Below are positions 23,529-49,407 of a stretch of 64,000 nt of DNA, one piece after another. The position numbers and the translations under genes are program-made. Source of the DNA: Methanobacteriota archaeon (GTDB taxonomy: Archaea > Thermoplasmatota > Thermoplasmata > UBA10834). Location: the NCBI GenBank assembly GCA_020348345.1, contig CP070748.1, positions 125,441-189,440 on the forward strand, in the 5' to 3' direction. Position 1 is the first letter of the stretch. Each line of letters starts with the position of its first letter. The notes beneath the pieces are model-generated. The model was not told where the DNA came from. It searched no databases and was given only the letters and a program-made list of their open reading frames with translations.

Positions 23529-23906
23529 TCACTTCAGAGCGCCCTTCGCCTTCCGCATGTTGTCCACGGTGAGGGCCATCTCGGTGACTCCGTTCTCCTT
23601 GCTGATTATGTATATGGAGTTGACGTTCACCATCGCTTTCGCGAGCTTCCGAGCCATCTTGCCAAGCTCGCCAGGCCTGTCCGATAGGTTCACGACAAGC
23701 ACTTCCTGGAGTTCAAAAGGCGCGCCCATCCGCTTCAGTGACGATGTGGTCGTCGCCTCGTCGTCCGTGACGATGCGTATACGTGGTCTGCTATGGTGTC
23801 TCTCGCTGGCAATGGCTCTTATGTTCACGCCGTTGTTACCCAACGCCTCGCACACTCTTGCGAGTTCTCCCGGCTTGTCCTGCACAAAAACGTCGAACTC
23901 CTTCAG
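23529..23906 (-). CDS. Double ACT-domain protein, apparent CTG start
   Basis: A 125-residue protein made of two tandem ACT folds, the amino-acid-sensing module (first: DKPGELARVCEALGNNGVNIRAI; second: DRPGELGKMARKLAKAMVNVNSIYI). It is a stand-alone ACT protein and may be a ligand-responsive regulator. The first standard start codon in frame is GTG 23885, but that would remove the first beta strand KEFDVFV. Reading upstream gives CTG at 23906 followed by AAG GAG TTC, preceded by GGAGGGAGG at 23918-23910 and a TTTTTAC TATA-like element near 23945 that puts transcription start next to the ribosome site. I therefore place the start at the CTG. Confidence 0.75.
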   Translation of the reverse strand: MKEFDVFVQDKPGELARVCEALGNNGVNIRAIASERHHSRPRIRIVTDDEATTTSSLKRMGAPFELQEVLVVNLSDRPGELGKMARKLAKAMVNVNSIYIISKENGVTEMALTVDNMRKAKGALK

Positions 23907-48072: not shown

Positions 48073-49350
48073 CTAGAAGCATTCGGCGCGATAATCGCCT
48101 GCGGAGAACACAGCCTTCCCGCCCTTCAACACGAGCGAGCATAGGTTCGTGCCCATCTGATAGGGTATGTGCTCGTGTGACGGGACTTCCATGATTACGA
48201 TGTCCGCGGCCTTGCTCTGCTCGATGGACCCGATCGTCTTCTCCCGGCCGATCGCGGCGGCGGCGTTCATCGTCGCGGCGACGATAGCCTCCTCGGGTGA
48301 CATTCTCATGTTGTAGCACGCCATCGTAATGGTGAACTGCATGGACGGGTTCCAGCAGTTCGGGTTGAGGTCTGTCGCGAGGGCAATCGGAACGCCGAGC
48401 TCGATGAGTCTCCTCGCATCCGGGTAATCGGCGGTCATAGACGAGAACGGCGTGCACGGCAGAAGCACGCCTACGACCTGCTTCCTCGCCATTCCCATGA
48501 TGCCGTCGTCCGATGGACGTGCGAGATGATCCGCAGAGATCGCCCCTACCTCTGCGGCCAGCTCCGCCCCGCCCGAGTGTTCGAACTCGTCCGCGTGCAC
48601 CTTCAGGCCGAGTCCGAGTGCCTTTGCCGCGAGCAACATCTTACGTGACTGGCCGAAGTCAAACACGCCCTTCTCGCAAAAGACGTCGCAGAATCTGACG
48701 GGGTGCGTGGATGGCAGATCTATGAGCACCTCGTCGATGATGAACTGTATGTACTCGTCCGCCCTGCCAGAGAATTCCGGCGGAACCGCGTGCGCTCCCA
48801 TGAATGTCGGCACGATGTCTACGCTGAACTCCCTGTCCAGCCTCTTCATGGTCTCGATGATTCTGAACTCGGTTCTGCGGTCGAGGCCATATCCCGATTT
48901 GGCTTCGATCGTCGTGGACCCATGCTCCAGCATCCTGGCGAGGCGCTTTGCAGACTGGTTGAGCAACTCGTCCTGGGATGCTGCTCGCGTAGAGGCGACC
49001 GTTTGGAGTATACCTCCTCCTTCTGCCATGATTTCCTTGTAGGTCTTGCCCTTGATCTTGAGCTGAAGCTCAGACTCCCGCGACCCTGAGAACACCAGGT
49101 GAGTGTGTGGGTCCACCAGGCCGGGCATTACGACCTTGCCCGAAGCATCTATTCTCTCGACTCCGCGAGATCCGTGGCTCTTAAGAACGGCCGCCGTGTC
49201 GCCCACGGCTTCTATCATGCCATGGCGGATGTACACCGCGCCGTCCCTGATAATGCCCAGTTCTGACATCTCCTCGCGGGCCCTCGCCCTGCAGGGGCCT
49301 TGGATCGTCAGCAGCTCGGCGGCGTGCGTTACAAGCAGCTCATCCGTCAG
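48073..49350 (-). CDS. hutI: Imidazolonepropionase, apparent CTG start
   Basis: Amidohydrolase that opens 4-imidazolone-5-propanoate to formiminoglutamate in histidine breakdown. Zinc-site and substrate motifs: VMPGLVDPHTHLVF, ILQTVASTRAAS, EAKSGYGLD, the second metal HADEFEHSGGAEL and ATDLNPNC. ATG 49269 would lose the N-terminal beta-sandwich strands (DELLVTHAAELLTI); the frame is open upstream with no ATG/GTG/TTG. CTG 49350 lies 10 nt after AGGAGG and gives 425 residues, close to the usual 405-425. No hutH, hutU or other histidine-degradation gene is in the window, and the neighbours are glycan genes. Confidence 0.88.
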   Translation of the reverse strand: MTDELLVTHAAELLTIQGPCRARAREEMSELGIIRDGAVYIRHGMIEAVGDTAAVLKSHGSRGVERIDASGKVVMPGLVDPHTHLVFSGSRESELQLKIKGKTYKEIMAEGGGILQTVASTRAASQDELLNQSAKRLARMLEHGSTTIEAKSGYGLDRRTEFRIIETMKRLDREFSVDIVPTFMGAHAVPPEFSGRADEYIQFIIDEVLIDLPSTHPVRFCDVFCEKGVFDFGQSRKMLLAAKALGLGLKVHADEFEHSGGAELAAEVGAISADHLARPSDDGIMGMARKQVVGVLLPCTPFSSMTADYPDARRLIELGVPIALATDLNPNCWNPSMQFTITMACYNMRMSPEEAIVAATMNAAAAIGREKTIGSIEQSKAADIVIMEVPSHEHIPYQMGTNLCSLVLKGGKAVFSAGDYRAECF

Positions 49351-49396
49351 TTGTCGCCCCCCTCCTGCGGTCCTATCTGCGGTAATTCAGTTATTA

Positions 49397-49407
49397 CTCT
49401 ATAAAAC
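49397..49407 (-). promoter_or_regulatory. TATA box of hutI
   Basis: GTTTTATAGAG on the minus strand, between the flippase stop and hutI. It predicts a start near 49375, then AGGAGG at 49366-49361 and CTG at 49350. Confidence 0.65.

Follow-up and report, generated by a model that had tools for sequence, protein, structure and literature searches.

The segment from 48073 to 49407 of the window (the whole 64,000-nucleotide stretch analysed, from the genome designated G000) begins upstream of hutI, a minus-strand gene for a predicted imidazolonepropionase, with the promoter and leader at 49407–49351 and the coding sequence, read from a CTG codon, at 49350–48073 (end of the stop codon at 48073). 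Read in this way the gene has 425 codons plus the stop, the length that the first-pass annotation had given. The protein matches TIGR01224, a curated equivalog model for imidazolonepropionase, with 453.7 bits (cut-off, 298.15; E = 4.3e-136) over essentially the full profile (positions 2–376 of 377), and aligns with the Bacillus subtilis HutI (PDB 2bb0) from residue 7 (E = 2.1e-100). Six residues that we take to be metal or active-site residues of the amidohydrolase fold (H82, H84, H187, H252, H275, and D327) are invariant in 25 aligned sequences. Full-length hutI orthologues are present in most of the related genomes searched; the orthologue in G015 (L011) contains one in-frame TAG. The partner gene in histidine degradation, hutH, is above cut-off at G000:C1:45133–46626 (L116), far from hutI, and the histidine-degradation genes are thus unclustered in G000.

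The possible starts of hutI are bounded by an in-frame TGA (49389–49387, minus strand), after which the frame reads ATT ACC GCA GAT AGG ACC GCA GGA GGG GGG CGA CAA CTG ACG GAT GAG. When every codon between this TGA and the ATG at 49269–49267 (minus strand) was checked, twelve ahead of the CTG and 27 from the CTG onwards, none was an in-frame ATG, GTG, or TTG, as the first-pass annotation had stated. Its further description of a TATA box followed by AGGAGG and, 10 nt later, CTG also holds for the sequence, with a TATA-like promoter element TTTATA at 49405–49400, a Shine-Dalgarno AGGAGG at 49366–49361, and the CTG at 49350–49348, all on the minus strand. The GGAGG motifs of G000 mostly lie 5–10 nt before the first canonical starts, placing the 10-nt spacing of hutI at the long end of the range for this genome and within a functional distance. 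In the stretch that separates the upstream gene from hutI, all 14 aligned family members have a GATTA/GAATTA element, which varies slightly amongst them, and a conserved TTATA.

Amongst the orthologues the position of the start is constant and only the codon varies (CTG, TTG, or ATG in 15 species), the pattern of a non-AUG start. The aligned codon is CTG in G000, G004 (L006), and G005 (L115), three congeneric species from three assemblies; TTG in three further species of the genus (G002, G003, and G006) and in G015 from a sister genus; and ATG, exactly at that position, in eight species of the two sister genera. The earlier proposal that hutI appears to start with CTG is therefore supported by the very comparison it had suggested, whether relatives carry ATG at the aligned position. 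A base-calling error hiding a true ATG or TTG might be suspected in G000, a single metagenome-assembled genome, but is vanishingly unlikely, with the same hutI CTG in G004 and G005 and CTG recurring in other genes of many species (see below); its occurrence in three species was sufficient to reject an error at this codon. No canonical in-frame codon is able to substitute for the CTG in G000, with none upstream and the first downstream encoding a conserved methionine, Met28. In G004 and G005, a TTG four codons downstream of the CTG could serve as a start; it is absent from G000.

Other routes into the hutI frame would begin within the leader or just beyond the CTG. The in-frame stop is followed directly by the ATT at 49386, and G000 has an out-of-frame ATG (gacggATGagc) from which a frameshift could reach the hutI frame, but initiation by either route is highly improbable. 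The GAATTAC element is conserved yet out of register with the hutI frame between species, and the leader of G000 has an 11-nt insertion that shifts the upstream frame, which therefore differs from one species to the next. G004 and G005 lack the out-of-frame ATG, and the frameshift from it was rejected for this lack of conservation.

The most direct competitor to the CTG is the ATG at 49269, which would yield an enzyme of 398 residues. It is the first in-frame ATG, GTG, or TTG, an AGGAG directly abuts it, and the TIGR01224 match begins only at residue 35 of the longer protein. The methionine it encodes, however, is nearly invariant (90% or more) in the 25 aligned HutI proteins, including orthologues with an ATG of their own further upstream, which marks it as the internal Met28, and the Shine-Dalgarno-like run before it has no spacer. 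Judged by the substitutions amongst the six congeners, codons 2–27 are evolving as coding sequence (102, 51, and 222 differences at codon positions 1, 2, and 3, respectively, over all pairs). In the CTG reading the start methionine is followed by TDELLVTHAAELLTIQGPCR, and an AlphaFold2 model built with the window protein and the alignment of 25 HutI sequences (mean pLDDT, 86.6; pTM, 0.90) places the first beta-strand confidently at residues 4–14 (block 11–20 at 96), in support of the first-pass expectation that the upstream frame encodes an N-terminal strand of imidazolonepropionase. According to this model, a protein begun at Met28 would miss that strand. Conservation, coding signal, and fold together led to the rejection of Met28, a start that is very unlikely. 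The codons of the orthologues, the coding character of codons 2–27, the conservation of Met28, and the beta-strand thus make both a base error and a start at ATG 49269 unlikely, and hutI is very probably translated from the CTG at 49350, with the initiation event, the tRNA, and the role of the Shine-Dalgarno motif inferred from the sequences compared.

Beyond hutI, several core genes, amongst them a ribosomal protein gene and genes for purine- and lipid-synthesis enzymes, appear to start with CTG. The gene for the ribosomal protein uL13 (L136:4697–5107, plus strand; NCBIfam L13 equivalog) was found by a separate comparison, which looked for the codon that aligns, in one species, with the ATG start of another. 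Its start codon is CTG in G000, G004, and G005 (the following residues being AVIDAQEQVLGR), GTG in G001–G003, and, at the same position, ATG in G006, G007, and G010 and TTG in G009, G011, and G013. The start of purF (L135:7547–8953, minus strand; TIGR01134) occupies one position in twelve species and is CTG in G000, G004, G005, G006, and G012, ACG in G003, G007, G009, and G011, and ATG in G001, G008, and G010; in G003 an in-frame stop lies two codons upstream of the start and the next 28 codons include no canonical start. An archaetidylinositol-phosphate-synthase-like gene (best model NF040950, below cut-off at 151.9 vs 180) has CTG in ten species of three genera, TTG in G001 and G019, and ATG in G022–G025, as well as in G021 at a near-equivalent position. 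In an Fe-S protein the codon is CTG in eight species, GTG in G007 and G009, and TTG in G010, G019, and G020.

The start of aroA (L131:2551–3819, plus strand; TIGR01356) appears to be ACG, a codon well conserved in twelve species of two families, with GCG in G002 and G007. This is a weaker case because the gene overlaps the upstream gene and translational coupling or frameshifting is possible. Each of the synthase-like, Fe-S, and aroA genes overlaps or adjoins the end of the gene before it, an arrangement that may limit the choice of start codon; no such contact is apparent for hutI and purF. The three orthologue-backed codons, CTG, ACG, and GCG, have a further property in common, in that C-to-U editing of the mRNA would convert them to UUG, AUG, and GUG, and ribosomes would then meet only canonical starts. 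We know of no C-to-U editing of archaeal mRNA, CUG and ACG also act as strong near-cognate starts in eukaryotes, where no editing is involved, and the two genomes with GCG in aroA each have a GTG or ATG of their own a few codons downstream; editing of these sequences would be a very improbable source of the pattern.

Several further candidates were noted. Within the window, an ACT-domain-like protein of 125 aa (LKEFDVFVQDKPGELAR...; 23532–23906, minus strand) may start with the CTG at 23906–23904, just upstream of which lies GGAGGGAGG; its homologues in G006 have an ATG one codon further upstream. Candidate ACG starts were found for a P-loop ATPase (TTFTAAVAGKGGVGKTT; L134:7099–7860, plus strand), preceded by a GGTGA motif and with a stop two codons upstream, and for an ABC-permease-like protein (L119:12176–13153, minus strand) also preceded by GGTGA. 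For an endonuclease-like CTG candidate on L136, the orthologue in G005 has a nearby ATG in a different register. A regulator on L133 is a further tentative candidate. A CTG candidate for PAN in G006 was dropped, the codon at that position in G000 being CTT. Taken over the genes compared, the CTG start of hutI is, on sequence grounds, part of a lineage-wide pattern that lay beyond the reach of the first-pass annotation.

The frequency of such starts was explored in 864 kb of the 1.70 Mb G000 genome, sampled in stretches (about half), with a filter for codons in a coding frame upstream of the first canonical start that had a Shine-Dalgarno-like motif before them and a positive coding score after them. 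Matches to the filter were more frequent for CTG (8/145) than for codons that are not near-cognate (55/7512; Fisher p = 2.2e-5), and more frequent likewise when G000 was pooled with 400 kb each of G005 and G006 (14/317 vs 113/15,103; p = 3.5e-7), p-values that are somewhat optimistic as hutI and some of the other cases were already known when the filter was chosen. The control genome, G032, had no CTG matches amongst only 12 such codons, making it a weak control, and because this single control is poor in CTG codons it does not establish lineage specificity. It is conceivable, though doubtful, that start-codon choice is genuinely relaxed in this lineage and that about 1–2% of genes, essential ones included, routinely start at CUG or ACG by way of altered initiation machinery or C-to-U editing, a rate that is rough given that about half of the genome was sampled and that the filter picks up mostly genes led by a Shine-Dalgarno motif.

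The best reading of these sequences is that near-cognate CUG (and ACG) codons are used as starts by the initiator tRNA-Met, mostly with the help of a Shine-Dalgarno motif, as a recurrent minority in this uncultured Thermoplasmata lineage. On the short hutI mRNA leader, AGGAGG would pair with the 3' end of the 16S rRNA and bring the CUG into the P site; there it would be read, with a first-position mismatch, by the usual initiator Met-tRNA, such that the protein would begin with methionine. One copy of tRNA-Met(CAT) was found in the sampled half of G000; a tRNA-SeC (anticodon TCA) was also predicted in this genome by ARAGORN (L134:3905–4001, minus strand). The 16S rRNA in the G000 assembly is only a fragment (model positions 57–295; G000:C1:958647–958881, L117), and a search of G000 for the anti-Shine-Dalgarno pattern returned no match; the anti-Shine-Dalgarno sequence is assumed. 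G000 encodes the initiation factor aIF1 (SUI1 family), which in archaea screens out non-canonical starts; therefore no missing fidelity factor explains the tolerance of CTG, and loss of aIF1 was rejected as its cause.

Within the family, the hutI start codon would apparently have passed from ATG to TTG to CTG at one position. The motif before hutI is of the GGGAGGG type in G002–G005 and AGGAGG in G000, and no Shine-Dalgarno motif is evident before hutI in G006 or in the ATG-bearing sister genera, where leaders are short. The motif would have arisen in the genus to which all CTG starts and most TTG starts belong, which fits a weak start offset by a better ribosome-binding site, as far as one gene can suggest it. 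Start-codon switches elsewhere are reported to be coupled to changes in the Shine-Dalgarno sequence (PMC5622118). In other core genes of the same archaea, CTG, and in some genes ACG, would likewise serve as a minority start.

Within close relatives, one start position appears to drift amongst ATG, GTG, TTG, CTG, and ACG, as in uL13 and purF, providing a natural series for testing the limits of start-codon choice in archaea in which aIF1 is present. Prokaryotic gene finders normally permit only ATG, GTG, and TTG. Genes with CTG or ACG starts would thereby be shortened or shifted, and annotation-based surveys would be blind to them.

The closest known parallel is initiation at GUG and UUG in bacteria and archaea, where too a non-AUG codon at a constant position is read by the initiator Met-tRNA, and where close relatives differ by start-codon switches that are coupled to changes in the Shine-Dalgarno sequence (PMC5622118); CUG and ACG differ in lying outside the standard start codons. 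Switches to CUG were reported for two of 61,358 ancestral AUG starts and one of 2,468 UUG starts, in a survey using existing annotation, which seldom allows CTG (PMC5622118). A literature search, covering only a minority of subscription papers, found no earlier description of CTG or ACG starts conserved in core genes of archaea. In Methanosarcina mazei, also an archaeon, CTG is the start codon of about 5% of the unannotated small ORFs detected by Ribo-seq (PMC11456600); those are small and unannotated ORFs, whereas the CTG starts here belong to conserved enzymes and a ribosomal protein, are conserved between species, and are seen in genomic sequence. Near-cognate initiation in eukaryotes likewise uses CUG and ACG with a single mismatch to the initiator anticodon, but it depends on scanning and start context, whereas the archaeal cases described here mostly lie behind a Shine-Dalgarno motif.
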